Below are positions 2 through 60,938 of a stretch of DNA of 64,000 nucleotides, piece by piece. The position numbers and the translations under genes are program-made. The DNA is from Beta vulgaris subsp. vulgaris (taxonomy: Eukaryota; Streptophyta; Magnoliopsida; Caryophyllales; Amaranthaceae). The notes beneath the pieces are model-generated. The model did not search any database, had not been told where the DNA came from, and saw only the letters and a list, made by a program, of their open reading frames with translations. The DNA lies in the NCBI RefSeq assembly GCF_026745355.1, contig NC_079203.1, positions 41,668,992-41,732,991 of the forward strand, written 5' to 3'. How positions within the stretch are numbered: the first letter of the stretch is position 1; each line of letters starts with the position of its first letter.

Positions 2-2357
2 GAAATAAGTAGGGCCTTGAGATTTGGGGCAGGTTTGTCTCTAGCCTATTGGGGAGATTGTGTGGTTACAGCAGCTCAAATAATAAATAGACTACCAACA
101 CCTATCCTCAAAAACAAAACTCCTTATGAAGTAATGTTTGGCAAGGAACCTGATTACTCTCATTTAAAGGCCTTTGGGTGTTTTGCTATGGCATATAACC
201 CTGAGAGAAAGAAAGATAAATTTGCTACCAAAGCTGTTCCTTGCATCTTCTTGGGTTATCCTGATACCCAGCAGGGATACAAGATGGAAAACCTTCTCAC
301 AAAAAGACAATTTGTTTCAAGAGATGTTCAATTCTATGAACATATCTTCCCTCACCTTAAATCTAAAACCTACACCTTCATGAATCCTATGCCCATTGAT
401 ATACCTAACTTTGTATGTAGTGATGTTGATCCTAATGTGACACATGTACCTGAACCTACACAAGTTGAAGCTGCTTCTCATGACTACATGTCACCTGAAC
501 CTACTTCATCTGATCAGACTCACATCCAAGCACCTCAAATACCAACCTCTCAACCTTCTTTCACTGAGCCTACACAAACACAACCACCTGTTCCCTCACC
601 TACACCTACTAGAAAATCTACAAGAATCTCAAAAACACCTACCTGGCTTAAAGACTTTGTTACTACCTCACAAAGAAGCATTGCTTCTAATGAACAAGCT
701 GAAGCAGTAACCTCAATAGTGCCAACATCTGTAAATGAGCACTTTGTAAACATGTTGAGAAAAGTAGTAGAGACTACTGAACCAAAAACCTACTATGAAG
801 CTGCTGCATAATCTGAGTGGGTATCAGCTATGAAACAAGAGCTTGCAGCCCTTGAGAAAAATGAAACCTGGGAGATAACCAGGCTTCCACCTGGAAGAAA
901 AGCAATAGGGTGTAAATGGGTGTATAATACAAAGTATAGAGCTGATGGCAGTGTAGAAAGGAAGAAGGCAAGGTTGGTTATTCAGGGTTGTAATCAGAAG
1001 AAGGGAGTTGAGTATACAGAAACATATGCTCCAGTAGCAAAAATGAGTACTATAAGGGCCTTATTGGCTGTTGCAGCTATGAATAAATGGCATACTTGTC
1101 AAATGGATGTGCAAAATGCATTCCTTCATGGAGACTTGAAGGAAGAAATCTTTATGCACATACCACTAGGATATCATCCACTTGATGATTGTGCAATGCA
1201 GAGGGAGAAAGAATTTCAAGTGTGTAGACTTAAAAAGGCTCTCTATGGCCTGAAACAGGCCCCTAGACAGTGGTTTGCTAAACTGTCTAGTGCCTTGCTG
1301 ACATTTGGTTTTGTTCAGTCACAAGCTTATCATTCTTTGTTTGTTCAAGCAGAAGATGATAACTTCACAGCTGTGTTAATATATGTTGATGACCTGATTA
1401 TTACTGGCAACAGTCTTGGTGCTATAAACAAGCTGAAGAGTCTCCTTAGCACTAGTTTTCATATGAAGGATTTGGGCAACCTAAGTTACTTCTTAGGTAT
1501 GGAATTCACTAGTTCTTCACAAGGGATCTTCATTTCACAAAGGAAGTACGCTCTTGATCTCTTGAAGGAATATGGCATTGACAAACTGAAATCTCTCAAG
1601 CTCCCTCTTGACACTCACATCAAGTTGGATGTTCAGAAGGGTACTCCTTTGCCTAATCCAGAGACCTACAGAAGGATGGTGGGGCAATTAATTTATCTTA
1701 CTCTCTCCAGGCCTGATATAAGTTTCTCAGTTCAATTACTCAGTCAGTTTATGCAAGCTCCTACATCAATTCACATGCAAGCAGCTAGAAGAGTTTTGAG
1801 GTACATTAAACAAGCACCTGAACAAGGCATCCTACTAGCTAGTAATACCGCAGCTAAGCTCACAGCTTATTGTGATTCAGATTGGGCATCATGTCCCTTC
1901 TCCAGGAGATCTACTACTGGCTATTGTATACTTCTAGGATCCTCTCCAATATCTTGGAAGAGTAAAAAAGCAAAGTGTAGTTGCTCGATCCTCAGCTGAA
2001 GCTGAATACAGGGCTATGGCCTTCACTACCTGTGAAGTCACCTGGTTTATGTCCTTATTGAAGGATCTGGGACTAAGGAATTTGCATCCAGCTGCTCTCA
2101 AGTGTGACAATCAAGCAGCATTGTCTATAGCTGCTAATCCTGTCTACCATGAAAGGACAAAGCATATTGAAGTGGATTGCCACTTCATTAGAGAGAAGAT
2201 TGCTCAAGGCATCATACATCCTTCCTATGTTCCTTCTAAAGCTCAATTAGCAGATGTTCTGACTAAGGCACTGCCTACCTACCAACACAACAAGCTTCTA
2301 GGCAAGATGGGAGTGCAATCAGCATCACACTCTCATCTTGAGAGGGAGTGTAAATGA
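2..2357 (+). pseudogene. Ty1/copia pol, 3' half (integrase end, RT, RNase H), disrupted
   Basis: The reading frame is open from the window edge, so the element begins upstream. Up to about 810 it encodes the end of the integrase core and the following domain (INRLPTP, GKEPDYSHLKAFGC). A TAA at 809-811 interrupts the frame, which resumes unchanged with SEWVSAMKQELAALEKNETW, the usual start of the copia reverse transcriptase region. The RT block to about 1700 shows KARLVIQG, YAPVAKMSTIRALL, QMDVQNAFLHGDL and the catalytic YVDDLIITG. One extra A in the A6 run at 1964-1969 shifts the frame just before the RNase H motif [11 protein letters not shown]. RNase H then continues to the stop at 2355-2357 ([35 protein letters not shown]). 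Two lesions in 2.4 kb imply a fairly recent but inactive copy. Confidence 0.95.
2338..2348 (+). other. Polypurine tract of the copia element
   Basis: The purine run CTTGAGAGGGAG lies immediately before the TG that opens the LTR, where plus-strand DNA synthesis is primed in LTR retrotransposons. It overlaps the last codons of the RNase H frame, as is common in compact copia elements. Confidence 0.8.
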
Positions 2358-2643
2358 TAAAACATCTAATATCTACTTCATCATGTGCAGCTCACATGTT
2401 CACTTACTAGTTGACACCTAGGCACCTTGGATCACGTGAGAATCATTCTAGGGATTGGTATTGTAATAATACTCTTCCTAGTATAAAAGGCTGCATAGGT
2501 CAGCTTGTAATACTTCAACAAACACATCACTAAATACAAGGAGGGGCCGCCATTTGAGCTACCTACCCTTGCTTCAATCTTCTGCATTTATTCGCATTCA
2601 ATACAGCAGATTTCATCAAACTCTTTCCTTAAAATTGTTTACA
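2349..2643 (+). repeat. 3' LTR of the copia element
   Basis: The 295-bp LTR opens TGTAAA and closes TTTACA, a perfect 6-bp terminal inverted repeat of the TG...CA type. It follows the polypurine tract directly. It contains a TATA box (TATAAAA, 2482-2488). The 5' LTR and the left target duplication lie outside the window, so the LTR pair cannot be compared for dating. Confidence 0.85.
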
Positions 2644-2679
2644 AAGTTGAATGCAGATACACTTAGTACTTACTGAATG

Positions 2680-2843
2680 ACAAGGCTTCTTTACTTCTCA
2701 TTACAGTTACAAGCTGTATTATAATTGATTTCTCTTACAAGAGAATGAACAGGGAGGTTGCCATTGTCAAACAATTTCCTATTTCGTTGCTTCCATAAGG
2801 CATACACAGTTTCAGTGAACAAAATCATCACCAGAACTTGATC
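2680..2843 (-). pseudogene. LINE C-terminal fragment (left part)
   Basis: The minus strand reads ETVYALWKQRNRKLFDNGNL, the conserved segment between the zinc-binding region and RNase H of plant non-LTR retrotransposons (compare the family pattern IWKxRNxxIF). It is separated from its other half (3634 onward) by a hAT insertion with an exact target duplication. The fragment runs up to the copia LTR end, so the copia element probably landed in or beside the same LINE. Confidence 0.75.
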
Positions 2844-2851
2844 ATCACCAA
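2844..2851. repeat. 8-bp target site duplication of hAT element, left copy
   Basis: ATCACCAA at 2844-2851 is repeated exactly at 3626-3633, directly outside the terminal inverted repeats. An 8-bp duplication is diagnostic of the hAT superfamily. Confidence 0.85.
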
Positions 2852-2969
2852 CAATGGCGAATCCAGCATGGGTTCAACTGAACCCACGAGAATCTGAGAA
2901 AGCAACTGGAATTTACAGGAAAACAAAATCAAGATATATAAAAAAGCGCCCAAAATAATATGAATCTTA

Positions 2970-3045
2970 TAAACTTGGCTCAGCGGTGTAGCGTGTTGTC
3001 ATAATGCTTGGGGTGGTCAATGTCGCGGGATCGAATCCCAGGAAG
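2970..3045 (+). repeat. tRNA-like (pol III promoter-like) segment inside the hAT element
   Basis: TTGGCTCAGCGGTG resembles a pol III A box, and GGATCGAATCCC about 50 bases later resembles a B box. The spacing is like that of a tRNA, but no cloverleaf is evident. It may be a captured tRNA or SINE head. Transcription is not shown. Confidence 0.45.
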
Positions 3046-3060
3046 ACCTTGTAATTTTTG

Positions 3061-3274
3061 TTTTACTTTTCTTCCCTCACTTTGTTTTTTTAATTACTAC
3101 AACTTATGTTTTTATTCTTGGTTTTATTTTTCTTTTGATCCTCCATTTTATAGCTAGCCTACCTTGTATTTTTTTTCTTTTTATACTTTTTTGCCTCCCT
3201 TTGTTTTTTATTACTACAACTTATGTTTTTATTCTTGGTTTTATTTTTCTTTTAATCCTCCATTTTCTAGCTTC
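3061..3274. repeat. Direct duplication of a T-rich block
   Basis: A block of about 95 bp (3061-3156) recurs at 3181-3274. Both copies contain TTACTACAACTTATG and TATTCTTGGTTTTATTTTTC, followed by ATCCTCCATTTT. The copies differ by a few substitutions and small indels. The duplication is internal to the hAT element. Confidence 0.8.
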
Positions 3275-3633
3275 CCTTCTTCACAAATATTCCACTCCAC
3301 CAAGCACTAATGTATTACTAGGAAATGAATCTGGTTTAATTTCCCTTTTCTTCCAATTTACTTGCTCAAAAACAATCAATTATTGATAGCATTAATAATT
3401 TATTAGCCAAAATATATTACAAAGACCTTACTGTTGGTGACTCGTTAATTATTAATAGCATTAAGAATTTATTAGTCAAACTTGTATAAGTGTTTTTAAC
3501 GCCTTTAAATATAAGTATTAATAGTAAAATTTAGCTGCACGCTTCGCGTGCATATAAGACTAATTTTTATTTTATGTTTAAACAAATTTGAACCCACGTT
3601 TGTTCAATTCTTGGATCCGCCACTGATCACCAA

Positions 3634-3790
3634 AACATTGCTATTTTGGATCATATGTTGACGTATTGTTACTTCACTATTTTTCCCTTTGCAAGGGACT
3701 GTTCCTCACTATTATAATTCGTGGCTTATTATATTCTTGGTCTCCCACTGAACTCCAAAATCACGAACAACTAATATAGACAGCAACTAC
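3634..3790 (-). pseudogene. LINE fragment (right part, beyond hAT insertion)
   Basis: When the hAT element and one target copy are removed, the minus-strand reading before the insertion (QCFGDD) runs into DQVLVMILFTETVYALWKQ at 2843 downward. At least one stop lies just upstream. The sequence becomes unrecognisable before about 3790. Confidence 0.5.
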
Positions 3791-4550
3791 AAATGAGAAA
3801 TGTACACCATAAAGCTTTCCACTACTTGCCAAGACATGTTATTTCATCTTGAACACACCTTCAAAATCATACTAAACTACGTTGACAAACCTTCACACAT
3901 TAACTTACAAAATAGCCACATACTTACAAAAAAAAAAAAAAATCAGCATACATTAAAATAAAGTATTAACATTTTTTGTAGGAATACATCTTTAACCTCT
4001 CCGATCCTGATCCATAATTGAGCTACGGGGACATAAAGATTGACTTTCCCCTCTTATTCAGACCTTTTTTCATCTCTCAATTATATCATGATGGTCTGAT
4101 GGGAAACTTCAACCTCATTTATTTGTTGCTCAATAATATATAGAAGAGTCATATTGCATTTACAATGATTGTAGTTTTCTTTTACTTGATAAGAGTTTTT
4201 TTTTGTTTGGTTTTTGGAAAACAGTTTTAAGTTTAAACTGATTTAAAAATGTGTTACATTTTCAAACTAACGTATATGTCGTGTGGATTTTTATCAAATT
4301 TAGAATCGAATCAACAATATGTATGTGTGTGCATTAAGGGAGTAAAAATTTTGTTTGGTGGCAAGAAACTGGTAAAATGATCACTAGTAAATAGCCAGAT
4401 GATATCCATTATTCACAATACTAATTAATCCTAGATATAAAAAAATCCAAAACATTGACATAAAATGCTCAATCTAATATGGTATCAAAACTTGATTTGC
4501 ACCACTTCAATGTCATACAATTAGGATTATAACTTGTACAGAGACTAAGA
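3791..4550. other. AT-rich intergenic stretch, no gene seen
   Basis: No coding frame or RNA gene is supported. A poly-A run lies near 3928-3942. A short TGGTATCAAAAC at about 4482 resembles a degenerate initiator-Met primer-binding site, but no LTR was found beside it. Confidence 0.6.
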
Positions 4551-4855
4551 CTCCGTTTGTTTTGAAGGAATACTTTTTACAGGAAAATGATTTTCCTCTT
4601 TCCGTTGTTGTTTGGACAAGGGATTAAAAAGGACAACTACGGTGGAAAAAAGTTTTCCACCCCTTTGTAAACATGCTCCCTTCAAAATTTGAAGGAAAAT
4701 AATTTTCTTACATTTTCTCATTCCCAACATCTCCATTTTCCTCTTCTTAGCTTGATAATTCTCTATCAAATCAGACTAATGAAAAATAATGTCATTTCGA
4801 TTTTCCATTGGAAACTGTTTTTCATGAAAAATGTTTTCCAGCAAAACAAACGTAC
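4551..4855. mobile_element. MITE-like element with GTTTGTTTTG ends
   Basis: A perfect 10-bp inverted repeat, GTTTGTTTTG (4555-4564) and CAAAACAAAC (4842-4851), bounds about 300 bp. The interior is built of inverted GGAAAAT/ATTTTCC words, so the whole can fold extensively. No coding capacity. I could not fix a target duplication, so the superfamily is unassigned. Confidence 0.6.
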
Positions 4856-4926
4856 ACTAACTGATTTGGGACGAAAAAAATACAATGGAAAAACAACGAA
4901 GTAACATTCAAATTGTATAAGAGGTA

Positions 4927-5169
4927 CTCCCTCTTTTTTTTTTATCTTTCTCTCTTTCCTATGCGCGTCTCCTGATACTTGTATTTAAACTTGAATATCT
5001 TTCATAATATATTAGTAAAAATTACAACGTTTGAATATTAATAAAGTATTAATTGATACTATATAAAGAAGACCCCATATGAATATATTTATTCTTCTAA
5101 AATTGAGAAAATTACATATGAGTATGAATAGTGTCAAGATTTCAAGTGAGAAAAAAAAAACAGAGGGAG
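4927..5169. mobile_element. Stowaway (Tc1/mariner) MITE, copy 1
   Basis: CTCCCTCT opens the element, AGAGGGAG closes it, and TA lies on each side (4925-4926 and 5170-5171). This is the Stowaway signature. Length is 243 bp with no ORF. It is the same family as the 59206 element, in opposite orientation: the inner words GCGCGTCTCC and CACTATTCATACT occur in both, inverted. Confidence 0.9.
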
Positions 5170-5171
5170 TA

Positions 5172-8100
5172 TGGGCCAAGAGGGATAAAAAAAATAACAA
5201 TTTCTGACCTAGAATGTAATGAAAGATGGGAGTATGGAGACTGAGGTTTTTAGAGCGAGAAAAGGAAAAAATATTGAAGTATTTTTTTTTTGGGTATGTA
5301 TGACGAAGGATCCTATCAAGCTGGAACATCTCTAACTTAAGTCAACTCAAATTAGATTAACGGGCTAGGCAATTCGGGAGTGGAGGAAAGGTAAGAGGAT
5401 CCCGCCCTTCCCTGAAGTTCCCCACTGACGATTAAAACCTCAACCTCAAAGGTTGCACTATTAGTGGAAAAAACCTTATATGACAAAGTAAAACAGATCC
5501 GATTCTCCCAAAAATCGTTAGGCTAAACTTAGCTTAGTCTGAAGTATTCGTTATTGGTCGTAAATAAGTTTTTCCTTATGCAAATATATATATTTATGTA
5601 AGAAGAGTTGGTTCTTAGAAAAGAAGGGTGTATTCTCTTCACTTGATTTTTAGTAGTTTGATACTTATCTCGACTTATTTGAACTTATTATATGTTTACC
5701 TAATTTATTTGAACTTATAGGCCCCGAGCTTAGTATATCCAAACATATTTAAACTTTTAAGTTGTAAATTCAACTTAGTGTCCCATATATTTAACTTTAA
5801 AATTTATCTAAATTTATTAGCCTTAAACCTAAAGGATAATTGTTAGAAGCTAAAAGTGACAGCATCGACCCTTGATTTTGTCATACAATTTCTAAATTTA
5901 AACCATTTAAATATATATTTGATGTTAATGTTTAGATTTTAGGGTAGTGTATATCAACATAAAAAAAAAAATTGTAGAACGGACTGCACTTACCATTCTT
6001 TTCTTGTGGTGTAGTATTTTGAGGTAGTCAAATTTGGGGATTTCTTAATAGTTAATCCCCTTGTACATTAATTAGAAATTACCACAGCACAGCATATGTT
6101 AAAGCATTCTCTTTACACCCTTAATCTTCGCTTAGTGAAAGGAGTGAAGAAGCTTTTAGATTTATCTCAAAAAAAGGGGAAATAGCTTCTGGACCACTTT
6201 CAACTGTCTTCTTAATCCAAGAGTTAACTACGGCCGGGTGAGGAAAACAAAACCTTTAAATAACGAAAACATGAATACATATGTAGGTTTCATAAGATTA
6301 ATTACAGGTAATTAAGTTCTCTATCCATGGTTCTTTACAAAATGCAAAAAAAAACATTATATAAAATGTTCTAACTATGATTTAGATGTAGTTTCGCAAT
6401 GGCGTAATTGTTACTATAATTATGATTAAAATTAGCTGGTTTTAGAACAAATTCGACCCGCACTGTCTCTTGCTGCTTTGACCGAATCATTTATTACCTA
6501 TTTGGCTTTTCTATTTTGTTAGTCAACAATTAGGGTTTTGCTCATTCTCTAAAAAACCAACATTTTCATTTATATTACACAAAGGAGGATTTACTATATT
6601 GTTTTTCTTTTGTCTCTTACAAGGAGGTGATATAAGTTATTCGGATAAAATTTATATAATGTTAATAGAAATCAATTAACAATTTGAATGGATTTTTTTT
6701 TACCTCGTTTGTTTATTGAAAATTCAAATTATTGGATTGAGGGCTGGGGGCATAGCCCTAAAAGTTTATGTAAACTTTTTTCCAACTTCGAAATTTTAGA
6801 AGTTTGATATATTCGAACTTTAAATGAAACAAGTAATAAACCCTTAATCGATATGTTTTTTGGACAGTTAGTTAGTATTATTAATGGTCATATAATGAAA
6901 TTAATTTCAGGACTTGTTATAAACTTATGTTAATTTTAGAACTTCTCAACCAATATATTGGAAATTTTGATTTAAATTTATAACTTCTATTAACCAATCC
7001 ATGAAAAATAAGGTAAATTAATTATTAGGCCAAACCAATGATCTCATGGATTTTCAAACTAGATTCAAACTATCAAGTTTTAAATTAGATTTGATTGTGT
7101 AGATATTCATATCGGATTTGGACTCAAAACTCAAAAAGCCAATTTTATTTCGGATTAGATTAGACTTGAGTTAAATCTAAATGATAGAATAGTAGATTGA
7201 TCTTATCTTTCTTTAATTTTATCTTTGTATGAAGATGTGAAACATATGTATCCTTAAAGATAAAGTTAAAGCCAACAAGAGAGACACTCCCAAATAAACA
7301 TACATTAAACAGTAAATTAAATTCCAAAACAATAAGGAAAATTTTATTGGTAAGAAAATCAAATCATCTTTATTCCTAATATTCTAAAAAATAAAAACAT
7401 GTATAGGAACAACCCAAATCTTGTTGATTGTAAAACGTCAAACAGTGATACACGAGATCTGGTATCAAATCCCGTTTACACCACTGTACTTTATCGCTCC
7501 CGATAAATAATATAAAAATATCACAACCCTACCAAAGAAGCAATTAATCTCTCACTAATAACATAAGCTAAAGCATTAACCCAGTCCCACCTAAAAGATT
7601 ACACACTTTCTGGGAAAAACAAATTAAACCTCACGCAGAAAACAGATAGGCTCACGGCACACATACAACTGTACAAGTGGTTGCTGGTCCATCACAATTC
7701 TCGTGCTTAGTTTCCTTCTCTTTAGCATGCTTCATTAATTATCACCTGATCCATCCTTCTTTGCTCTTTAATCATCAGATCAACCACAAAACCTGTGAGT
7801 TTATAGTACTAATTGTCATTAGTTTTTTTTTTTTCCTTAAAAAATATAACTTTAGCAAGTGACTTTAAAGCTGCAACATACAACTTTAGACTAATTGAAA
7901 CTTAACCTTTTCTTAAAAACATCAAGAAAAAAAATACTTACCAACATTCACAAGCTAATCTCACCTGGGTTTGAAAACCTGTACAAAAAAAAAAACAAAA
8001 CCATAATAACACAAAATACAAATATAAATCTGATTATATACATAATTATACCCTAATCGTTGAAACAATCCAACAGATTTTTTTTTCTCCTGCTTTTTGG

Positions 8101-8246
8101 GAGAAATTTGCAACAAAAAATGAAACAAAATCATGAAGATCATACAGTATATAATAAGATCATACTAAAAGCATAGTAGAAATTTTCATGCACATATATA
8201 ACAAAAGCAAAAAAAGAAAGTGAGAAGGAGAAAGGGAGAGAAGGGG
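5172..8246. other. Non-coding stretch, 3' side of MIR156
   Basis: I see no supported gene. The sequence is AT-rich, with stop codons in all frames and no recognisable protein words. The part nearest 8.2 kb may be transcribed as the 3' portion of the MIR156 primary transcript, but no poly(A) site is identified. GGTATCAAATCCCG near 7462 resembles a pol III B box without a convincing A box. Confidence 0.5.
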
Positions 8247-8254
8247 ATAGTGGG

Positions 8255-8275
8255 GGTGACAGATAGAGGGTGAGC
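8255..8275 (-). ncRNA. miR156*: miR156 star strand (3p arm)
   Basis: The 3p strand starts GCTCACCCTCTATCTGTCAC on the minus strand and pairs with the 5p mature strand. The C-rich difference from the commoner GCTCACTCTCT form lies at one position and leaves a small mismatch in the duplex. Confidence 0.85.
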
Positions 8276-8320
8276 ACGCATAGCTTCAAGCACATATTTC
8301 ATGCAAGAAAAGCACCATGT

Positions 8321-8340
8321 GTGCTCACTCTCTTCTGTCA
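8321..8340 (-). ncRNA. miR156: Mature miR156 (5p arm)
   Basis: All 20 positions match canonical plant miR156, beginning with the 5' U preferred by AGO1. It lies on the 5' arm of the hairpin, as in all known MIR156 genes. Confidence 0.95.
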
Positions 8341-8519
8341 CCTCCCTCTTACCATATATTTTTTTTGGTAATTTTGAAGGAGAGAGAACCCTAATTAGGG
8401 CATAATTGATGGGAAGAAAAAAAAACCCTAAAGAATAATGAGTAGAGAGGAAGTGTTGAGTAGATTGGAAACAGTGTTTTGCTGTGTTGTGGTGAAGACA
8501 TGGCATGATGGTTGAGCTC

Positions 8520-58456: not shown

Positions 58457-58604
58457 TAAGTTTATGTGAAACGGTTCATTTGATGCACATAGTTTAACAA
58501 CTTTTTAATTTATAGTTTATATCTTTCATTATGGTGATAATGGCCCGGCATTCTCTTTCCTTCCTTTCTAACGAGTAATTGTATCGCTAAATCCTCTAGA
58601 GAGT

Positions 58605-58951
58605 TGTTAGAGGTTAATCTAGAAAAATCTAGATGTGTAATGAAACATGAAGTGATGTATCTAGAAACATCTTGTACAAATCAAAGATATTAGACAAGTG
58701 TAGAGAAATCTAGAAAGTAGAACTACAACAACTATAAATATGTGTTGTATGTGCATGAGTGAAAAAAGGAGCCAAACAAGTGAGCTCCACACAAGATATT
58801 AGGAAAGGTATAAACAAAGGGTTCTACCAAGGTGAATGAGAGACATGAGCTCTCACAAACACACTTGTATCATTAATTATCAATAAAAATGCAATTTTTA
58901 TGATACTATTCGGGTTCATCAAAACTTCCGCGTGCGCCACAAATTCTATCA
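58605..58951 (+). repeat. 5' LTR of non-coding LTR retrotransposon
   Basis: The 347-bp LTR opens TGTTAGAGG and ends TCTATCA, directly before the primer-binding site. It holds a TATA box (TATAAATA, 58733-58740), four TCTAGA palindromes and an AATAAA signal (58882-58887). The 3' LTR is the same sequence lacking about 35 bp (near 58650-58684). Confidence 0.93.
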
Positions 58952-58966
58952 TGGTATCAGAGCCGG
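58952..58966 (+). other. Primer-binding site (initiator Met tRNA)
   Basis: TGGTATCAGAGCCGG immediately after the 5' LTR. TGGTATCAGAGC is complementary to the 3' end of plant initiator methionine tRNA, the usual primer for copia and many other plant elements. Confidence 0.93.
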
Positions 58967-59205
58967 AACGTGATAACGCCAACATCCAAGTAGCAAAAAG
59001 ACGATAGAAGATGCAAATTATCAAGTTGAAGGTTGAAGCAAGGTAAAAGAAGTTGAGGTAAGTGTCAAATTCAAAATATGTGGAAGAATTCAAATTAAAG
59101 GTGAAGATAAAAAAAAATGGTGAAGATGCATTAAGGATAAAAGCTTGAGGAGAAATTTAAAATGAAAAGGTATGTGAAGGAAAGATTAAAAAGAATTGAG
59201 AAATA

Positions 59206-59462
59206 CTCCCTCTGTTTTTTTTTATTTTTCTCACTTAGAATCTTGGCACTATTCATACTTAGAGGGAATCTTCTCAATTGTTTTAAATCTATAAGAAAAC
59301 ATATAGTCATGTGGGGTCTTGTTTGATTCGTCTCAATTAATACATTATTAATATTCAATCGTTATGATTTTTACTAATATATAATGAAAGATATTTAAGT
59401 TCAAAGAAGTGCATTGGGAGACGCGCACAGAGAAAGTGAGAATGATAAAAAAACAGAGGGAG
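59206..59462. mobile_element. Stowaway MITE, copy 2 (inside the LTR retrotransposon)
   Basis: CTCCCTCTG and CAGAGGGAG termini are flanked by TA (59204-59205 and 59463-59464). 257 bp. It is the same family as 4927-5169, inverted relative to it. It inserted into the retrotransposon interior. Confidence 0.92.
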
Positions 59463-59469
59463 TAGTTTA

Positions 59470-59914
59470 GTTAGTGACATGAGCACTAACAAAAAAATAT
59501 TTGAAAATGGAAAAATTTTATTAAATGTTGGAGAAAAAAAGATTTGAAGAAGAAAGTGTTTAAAGGATGCTAATGACAAGGACATTAGCAGAGTATATTG
59601 GTGACAAGAGCATCAAGAGTTTGAAAATATTCACAAAAAGAAGATTTTAGAGTTTGCTAATAACGTGGGCATTAGCAGAGATGATTGGTGACATGACCAT
59701 CAATGAAAGAATGAAATTGGATAAAGATATGTGAAGAAGAAAAAATGAAAAAGTTCAGACAAGGGAGAGTAAGTTGGTAACATGGGTACCAACACAAGAC
59801 ATTGAAAATCAAGAAGATGTGAAGAGAAAGCAAAACTGAGGATAGTTGGTGACATGGACACTAACAAAAGCAATTTCAATGCATGGTCGAGTTGTTGATG
59901 ACAAGTGCATCAAC
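59470..59914 (+). other. Array of eight covarying short hairpins
   Basis: Eight inverted repeats start at 59470, 59569, 59598, 59656, 59684, 59773, 59845 and 59894. Stems: GTTAGTG/CACTAAC, GCTAATG/CATTAGC, TTGGTG/CATCAA, GCTAAT/ATTAGC, ATTGGTG/CATCAAT, GTTGGTA/TACCAAC, GTTGGTG/CACTAAC, GTTGATG/CATCAAC. Loops are 7 nt in seven of them: ACATGAG, ACAAGGA, ACAAGAG, ACATGAC, ACATGGG, ACATGGA and ACAAGTG. The fourth has ACGTGGG enclosed by an A.C mismatch. Unpaired exceptions are otherwise G.U pairs. Stems vary while pairing holds and the loop start ACA is fixed. Purine-rich spacers separate them. Confidence 0.85.
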
Positions 59915-59960
59915 AGGTTTAAGATTTTTACAGTACAGATTTTTCAAGATTAAGGGGGAG

Positions 59961-60272
59961 TGTTAGAGGTTAATCTAGAAAAATCTAGATGTGTAATGAA
60001 ATCAAAGATATTAGACAAGTGTAGAGAAATCTAGAAACTAGAACTACAACAACTATAAGTATGTGTTGTATGTGCATGAGTGGAAAAGGGAGCCAAACAA
60101 GTGAGCTCCACACAAGATATTAGGAAAGGTAGAAACAAAGGGTTCTACCAAGGTGAATGAGAGATATGAGCTCTCACAAACACACTTGTATTATTAATTA
60201 CCAATAAATATGCAATTTTTATGATACTATTCGGGTTCATCAAAACTTCCGCGTGCACCATAAGTTCTGTCA
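59961..60272 (+). repeat. 3' LTR of non-coding LTR retrotransposon
   Basis: 312 bp, from TGTTAGAGG after the polypurine tract to TCTGTCA. It matches the 5' LTR with scattered substitutions (for example TATAAATA is TATAAGTA) and lacks one 35-bp segment. The LTR divergence implies insertion was not very recent. Confidence 0.93.
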
Positions 60273-60938
60273 AGAGCTTGCCTGGAGGCAAGAGGACCTA
60301 ATCCAAGTACTGCCTAATATGTATTTTAACTATTTTTTTATTTTAATCATCTACAAAAGTGTGTAGTACTAAAACAATTAGCCACAATTTCAATCCTAAA
60401 CTCACTAAGATCCACTGGATTTGTGTATGAAGTATAGATTTTTCAAGCGTGAGATTGGGTCCGTAATATTTTAGTGGATTGGGTTCAGGTTTTATTGAAC
60501 TCAACCCAAATTCTACTCATCCTCTTCATTAGCTAGTAGATAGATTATTACATTACTATTGGTTTGTTCTATGTACTTATTAGTAGCTTTCGCGCCAATT
60601 TGCTTTTGTCACTATAAAAACTCTTAGGCAAGGCGATTCAACGTCCCCCTTCTTTGATGTACGTATGGAAGACCTAAGTAGATGACTAAATCATACGGTG
60701 ACAAATCATAATTTAATCTTTCGTCCACGATGTGAAAATCTATATATCCTTTGTAGATGTTTACAAATAACTTATTAGAGTTTGCTAAGGACGGGTGAGA
60801 TTTATGTGAACTTTTTATTTCAAATTTTCATATGAAAGCTAATTTAGGATGGGGTATTATGTATTTTTGTGGTATCTTCCTTGTATTGTCTGGTGATGGT
60901 TGTTTCAAGTTCCTAAGGGCTAAGGGTAATCTTCCACT
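60273..60938. other. No gene seen
   Basis: No supported frame or RNA gene. Confidence 0.55.

Follow-up and report, generated by a model that had tools for sequence, protein, structure and literature searches.

A row of hairpins with a common loop and largely kept pairing in a small non-coding LTR retrotransposon family of Beta vulgaris

We identified a row of short hairpins with a common loop motif in a small non-coding LTR retrotransposon of Beta vulgaris. The hairpins lie on one strand, recur in many copies of the element and in divergent sublineages, and have largely kept their pairing. We propose that they act in cis as RNA hairpins in the transcript of this non-autonomous element, and that the array may be a multivalent recognition signal, which the Gag of a helper would read and which would mark the RNA for packaging. 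We give this reading somewhat less than an even chance.

The window, that is, the whole stretch of 64,000 nucleotides that was analysed, carries the TRIM-like element at 58605-60272. The 5′ LTR (TGTTAG...ATCA, 58605..58951, plus strand, 347 bp) is preceded by the target-site duplication AGAGT (58600..58604), which matches the 3′ copy AGAGC at 60273-60277 in 4/5 letters. The 3′ LTR (59961..60272, plus strand, 312 bp) is 35 bp shorter; the two LTRs are 95.3% identical over 274 bp and share identical first 41 bp. Directly after the 5′ LTR follows the primer-binding site TGGTATCAGAGCC (58952..58964, plus strand), which we take to be of the initiator-Met type, and the polypurine tract TTAAGGGGGAG (59950..59960, plus strand) adjoins the 3′ LTR. 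The interior is interrupted by a MITE at approximately 59203..59467, presumably Stowaway-like as the preliminary description also labelled it, with a related copy (80%) in the window at 4925-5172. That the retrotransposon encodes nothing was confirmed: the interior is non-coding, and the longest plus-strand ATG open reading frame in the interior is 26-65 aa across 29 copies. Like a TRIM, the element occurs in many copies, has two short direct LTRs and a target-site duplication, and contains a primer-binding site, a polypurine tract and a short interior that is non-coding. It differs from one in that 7-7-7 hairpins sharing a loop motif are lined up in this interior; its LTRs are also longer than the 100-250 bp of classic TRIMs. 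The U3 part of the LTR (58605-58720) contains TCTAGA/CTAGAA repeats, which we take to resemble heat-shock elements. A further LTR stem-loop, GGAGC-CAAACAAGTGA-GCTCC, lies at 58768-58788, and the form GGAGC-N(9-12)-GCTCC occurs 28 times in the 39 sequences described below. At the left end of the window (17-1999), two open reading frames of 264 and 389 aa look by eye like a copia-type polyprotein.

Eight 7-7-7 hairpins lie in 445 bp at 59470-59914, all on the plus strand, as had been described from the letters alone. They are hairpin 1 (GTTAGTG ACATGAG CACTAAC, 59470..59490, scoring 34.7 bits with the covariance model), hairpin 2 (GCTAATG ACAAGGA CATTAGC, 59569..59589, 26.5 bits), hairpin 3 (ATTGGTG ACAAGAG CATCAAG, 59597..59617, 27.8 bits), the outer pair of which is broken, hairpin 4 (GCTAATA ACGTGGG CATTAGC, 59656..59676, 18.8 bits), with an inner A.C, hairpin 5 (ATTGGTG ACATGAC CATCAAT, 59684..59704, 23.9 bits), hairpin 6 (GTTGGTA ACATGGG TACCAAC, 59773..59793, 33.0 bits), hairpin 7 (GTTGGTG ACATGGA CACTAAC, 59845..59865, 30.1 bits) and hairpin 8 (GTTGATG ACAAGTG CATCAAC, 59894..59914, 29.8 bits). 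Among their 56 stem positions, 51 are Watson-Crick, three are G.U, one is A.C (hairpin 4) and one is A.G (hairpin 3), so that most exceptions (3/5) are indeed G.U pairs. CATG is present in four of the eight loops, also as described, and the proposed loop consensus ACA-W-G holds in seven but not in hairpin 4 (loop ACGTGGG). Hairpins 2+3 and 4+5 are contained in an imperfect duplication; part of the array is thus duplicated, but as a whole it is not a single recent tandem array.

Simple chance as the origin of the array was ruled out by dinucleotide shuffles. The 445 bp gave 8 stem-6/loop-7 hits against 1.39 in shuffles, with 1/2000 shuffles reaching 8. One of the 8 hits was read out of register close to hairpin 4, and the true hairpin 4 is missed through its A.C; when only Watson-Crick pairs were allowed, there were 4 hits against 0.14, and 0/2000 shuffles were as high. 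Other 445-bp stretches of the window contain up to 10 stem-6 loop-7 hits of any sequence; the array stands apart by its common loop motif and single strand, and the local hit count by itself is not unique. A covariance model built from the relatives matched the element at ten places, 8 of them in the interior and 2 in the LTRs, at E up to 0.0069, and three further matches up to E 10 had E values of 0.093, 0.29 and 0.68. The folding energy of the array differed from shuffles on the plus strand (z -3.4) and on the reverse strand (z -3.7), and it does not pick the strand, because the reverse strand of palindromes folds equally well against shuffles. The strand was instead assigned from the loop motif, since 267 motif hairpins were on the element strand (a few of them stray matches outside the element) and one on the opposite strand in 39 sequences.

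Other identities were considered for the array and rejected. A hammerhead or other Rfam RNA was excluded, as no Rfam family reached its gathering score in the element (best E 0.44), and a tRNA gene was likewise tried and discarded. Binding of a protein to a specific DNA palindrome was rejected, as the arm letters vary while the pairing stays. The array had no match in plasmid records, and the LTR end had 0 matches in viral contigs. The hairpin pattern gave one exact match each in 47 viral contigs; in these 47 pre-picked contigs (387,661 bases), a second, weaker match was found in 4/47, and none had more at E up to 0.5.

Hairpins of the same kind, which the preliminary description had missed, are present in the LTRs (TGAGAG-ACATGAG-CTCTCA type). 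The 5′ copy (ATGAGAG ACATGAG CTCTCAC, 58836..58856, plus strand) has 6 pairs and scores 27.8 bits, and the 3′ copy (ATGAGAG ATATGAG CTCTCAC, 60157..60177, plus strand) scores 20.8 bits. In the window, the LTR hairpin lies about 104 nt 3′ of a TATA box and 45 nt 5′ of AATAAA; judged from this placing, it is probably located in R and hence would stand at both ends of the RNA. A 20-mer of the LTR hairpin has 112 exact copies in the genome, against 0 for the reversed control.

The same genome (569 Mb, 20 contigs) contains many relatives. A search with the array gave at least 52 matches (40 of 1047 first-look candidates scored), and 38 loci were fetched besides the window, making 39 sequences. The covariance model R1, built from 22 hairpin forms, matched the 38 loci 323 times at E up to 0.01 (300 of these matches listed). 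An LTR pair was found in 29 of 38 sequences examined (L037 was skipped), with a total element length of 1376-1884 bp by automatic limits, which cut or extend some LTRs (274 bp for the window element). LTR identity within these 29 copies ranges from 88.4 to 99.8%, and pairs as alike as 99.8% indicate recent activity of the family; the 5-bp target-site duplication is exact in several full copies. The hairpins fall into recognisable classes, which recur at aligned places across copies, and four to eight interior hairpins are alignable in most of them. As to arrangement, L037 carries a hairpin element in head-to-tail LTR-interior-LTR-interior-LTR order, L009 (about 1050-1590) has its leader with the primer-binding site doubled inside one element, and a tandem arrangement at C2:34.699-34.719 Mb, which repeats about every 2.8 kb, contains the hairpin element L116 (C2:34698900-34702900), which has an insertion in the LTR region.

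We then assessed pairing in an alignment of 35/39 copies, from which L031, L037, L041 and L044 had been left out beforehand; a hairpin block required at least 3 copies in which the hairpin was intact, and gapped hairpins were excluded from the counts of pairs, loops and private changes. Across nine hairpin blocks, 1613/1659 pair cells are standard, and single copies show a low level of independent mutation of the arms, with 46 pairs broken. When the arms of 11 different arm pairs, made up of the common forms and the LTR form, were permuted, the observed 71/77 Watson-Crick pairs compared with a mean of 52.5, and 0/20,000 permutations reached 71; without the LTR form, 65/70 were Watson-Crick against a mean of 50.9, with 1/20,000 as high. 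In the 22 hairpin forms, which were chosen for at least 6/7 paired positions, all 7 pairs vary on both sides, and covariation was 0.643 against 0.300 (0/500). Blocks 2, 3, 7 and 8 mix paralogous modules, and many arm switches in close copies sit in different modules, so the apparent subfamily switches are not all orthologous, and much of the covariation is between paralogous hairpins. In block 7, a common form, TACCACC, carries a fixed T.C mismatch; 8/30 full-length rows have it exactly, and variants of it are also present. In L042, the copy with the most alike LTRs (99.8%), 2/49 pairs are broken.

Judged from sequence, the strongest test of kept pairing is the projection of hairpin positions onto three divergent relatives (L115-L117). 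These were found through the LTR hairpin and are 66-82% identical in aligned parts, and the LTRs of L117 are 98.9% identical. Hairpin positions were taken from close copies only, gapped projections were excluded, and 21 of 31 projected hairpins were counted (interior, at least 4 references). At these positions 140/147 pairs are standard, and 0/10,000 permutations were as high, although the choice of the best reference can also mix paralogues here. In L115-L117, both letters of a pair were replaced by another Watson-Crick pair in 10 cases, 9 changes led to G.U, 4 turned G.U into Watson-Crick, and 6 broke the pair. Further relatives bring new arm pairs, for example TTTGGTG/CACCAAA and GTTGACA/TGTCAAC. 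The earlier claim of selection on RNA structure is thus well supported by relatives in the beet genome itself, with the restriction that many compensations are between paralogous hairpins.

The loop is mostly ACAWGRN and 7 nt long, and, when each loop is compared with the nearest common form in its block, 62/1659 loop letters are changed. In hairpins pre-picked by pattern (A, C/T, A/G, A/T, A/G, so that A at position 1 is by construction) and at least 6/7 pairs, CATG occurs in 131/258 interior and 49/52 LTR hairpins, 95/258 interior loops have A instead of T at position 4, and several hairpin classes keep ACAAG.

A family without hairpins provides a comparison. The 20-nt junction between the LTR and the primer site has 61 occurrences in the genome, of which 18 were fetched, chosen as not among the copies already seen; 5 of these carry hairpins, 12 belong to another family and 1 has a copia-type gag. 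Members of the contrast family (L118, L120-L124, L126-L129, L131 and L135) are 76-96% identical to each other over aligned parts, and in 10/12 of them the junction is followed, after about 770 bp, by a polypurine-tract end like that of the hairpin family. Their interior is unrelated to that of the hairpin family. Perfect 7-bp hairpins (loops 3-12) within the first 760 bp of the interior number 0-3 in the 12 contrast copies and 4-10 in six copies that carry the hairpins, and the hairpin model had no match in the contrast copies at E up to 1. Because this family shares the junction and has no hairpins, the array is a property of one lineage and not of the LTR type, and not every element of this LTR type needs the hairpins.

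We also searched for an autonomous helper. None was found among 21 LTR copies with 0.6-1.5 kb of flank, of which 7 lie in hairpin elements (including L108) and 14 look isolated, 8 of the latter with exact 5-bp duplications. Same-strand LTR-hairpin neighbours 4-7 kb apart were absent among 100 listed of 112 exact sites, a search that a helper with a changed hairpin would escape. Three candidates were rejected. L115 and L116 (2.8-kb-spaced) proved to be small elements whose LTR region carries an insertion. At L108/L020 (L137), where the LTR copies are separated by about 8.9 kb, a nested element interrupts a hairpin element. L125/L136 shares the 20-nt junction but has no LTR or leader similarity to the 8 sequences compared. 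The nested LTR element in L137 (C6:14745800-14755300) spans 802-8403, with direct ends of about 1.4 kb that are 97% identical and a 362-aa open frame. Behind the junction 20-mer, L136 (C6:25208100-25214500) carries a remnant of copia-type gag (PF14244, E 1.2e-5). The stem-loop model, for which a search in autonomous relatives with gag had been suggested, did not find an array in L125/L136, where one weak match had a long insertion (E 0.0075).

Based on the above results, we propose the following model. The element would be transcribed through the hairpins. Stems of about 7 bp appear free in their letters as long as they are paired, and the loop letters are kept, which argues that the loop, borne on a generic stem, is read by a protein (or an RNA). 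Since each RNA carries many hairpin copies, multivalent binding is suggested, and many weak sites may act together. The likeliest reader would be the Gag (nucleocapsid) of a putative autonomous helper, because the element is non-coding yet has recently moved; the array would then mark the non-coding RNA for packaging and reverse transcription. The packaging or protein-recruiting signal that had been suggested earlier is thus plausible. A more far-reaching version, in which the array is a packaging code common to several sublineages that lets the RNA out-compete the helper for Gag, is possible but doubtful; if it were true, a natural contrast would be offered by the family that shares the LTR-primer-site junction and has no hairpins. 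How the RNA of a gene-less retrotransposon is chosen by the particle of another element is, to our knowledge, an open question in plants. A compact, repeated and covarying motif in a recently active family, together with a family that has no hairpins, makes this question testable with short RNAs and purified Gag. Parasitic packaging has a precedent in BARE2 RNA in BARE1 particles (PMC3735527), and many dispersed stem-loops with a common coat-protein motif have also been described (PMC6281560).

A host RNA-binding protein, acting in export, stability, localisation or escape from silencing, could bind the hairpins instead of a helper Gag. The structural evidence is equal for both, an export or stability element would also fit the spread of the array and the presence of a hairpin in every LTR, and no helper with hairpins was found; however, no such protein is indicated, and no Rfam hit gives a lead to one. 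We consider this explanation unlikely, although it ranks next after a helper Gag. An improbable reading is that there was no structural selection, and that one palindrome was duplicated, while templated (strand-switch) repair or gene conversion preserved the complementarity of the arms. The imperfect duplication of hairpins 2+3 and 4+5 and the large share of covariation between paralogues in different modules are consistent with it. So is the relation of pairing to LTR age, where the decay expected after insertion shows no trend (rho 0.06, p 0.75). Conservation points the same way: hairpins are modestly more conserved in sequence than spacers,.929/.910 against.820 over the whole alignment (columns labelled by intact hairpins), but this depends on the reference copy, being.933/.900 against.813 with L042 and.748/.749 against.725 with the window. 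On the other hand, private changes within copies are mostly one-sided (by cells, 33 to G.U, 13 to A.C, 19 other and 2 double Watson-Crick); the excess of G.U over A.C among them is 33:13 in cells (p 0.0045) but weaker in events, at 23:11 (p 0.058). Because changes inside single copies are mostly independent, arm copying is not frequent. Double changes at the projected positions in divergent relatives also speak against this reading, which does not predict the fixed loop length, loop letters and strand.

Two further explanations concern RNA-RNA contacts of the loops. Kissing between the self-complementary CATG loops of two RNAs would provide a dimerisation signal, in line with the frequency of CATG in interior and, above all, LTR hairpins, and the dimerisation of Ty1 RNA has been proposed to start by kissing loops (PMC5454406). 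However, the retained ACAAG classes are not self-complementary, A at position 4 is common in interior loops, and the kept letters extend beyond CATG. The suggested CATG loop-loop dimerisation was therefore not supported as a general function, and we regard it as quite improbable. It is very improbable that the loops pair with a tRNA anticodon loop, either of the initiator Met tRNA, the presumed primer, or, for ACAAGAG, of Lys-CUU. AUGAG within ACAUGAG is the complement of CUCAU in the initiator Met tRNA, and the primer-binding site is presumably of this type. This pairing is of 5 bp only, and the loops ACAUGAA, ACAAGUG and ACGUAGG fit worse. Ty1 RNA does make extra contacts with its primer tRNA, but these involve the T and D arms (PMC5454406). 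Moreover, the family with the common primer-site junction has no hairpins.

We compared the element and its array with known systems. Retrozymes have a small LTR form; they carry hammerhead ribozymes, whereas the beet element has no hammerhead match up to E 5. Both are non-autonomous plant retrotransposons (PMC4918200). Cassandra is a TRIM with a conserved predicted RNA fold, but its LTRs contain 5S rRNA sequence and pair with each other (PMC7215508), and no 5S rRNA match was found in the beet element up to E 5. BARE2 of barley, a parasite packaged by the Gag of BARE1, has conserved signals for dimerisation and packaging (PMC3735527), and conserved RNA folds are also attributed to LARDs (PMC7215508); the passages of these papers cited here mention no multi-hairpin array for either. 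In a literature search that lay largely outside subscription journals, no comparable hairpin array was found. BeetRepeats catalogues 60 beet TRIMs (PMC11603912), and the hairpin family may already be named there. The array also resembles dispersed packaging signals of the MS2 type, which likewise consist of many stem-loops with a common recognition motif and varying sequences (PMC6281560). Those signals are known for the coat proteins of RNA viruses, whereas any protein partner of the beet array is putative. Several stem-loops with a common loop motif and variable stems, a feature of dispersed packaging-signal arrays, are present in the beet family.
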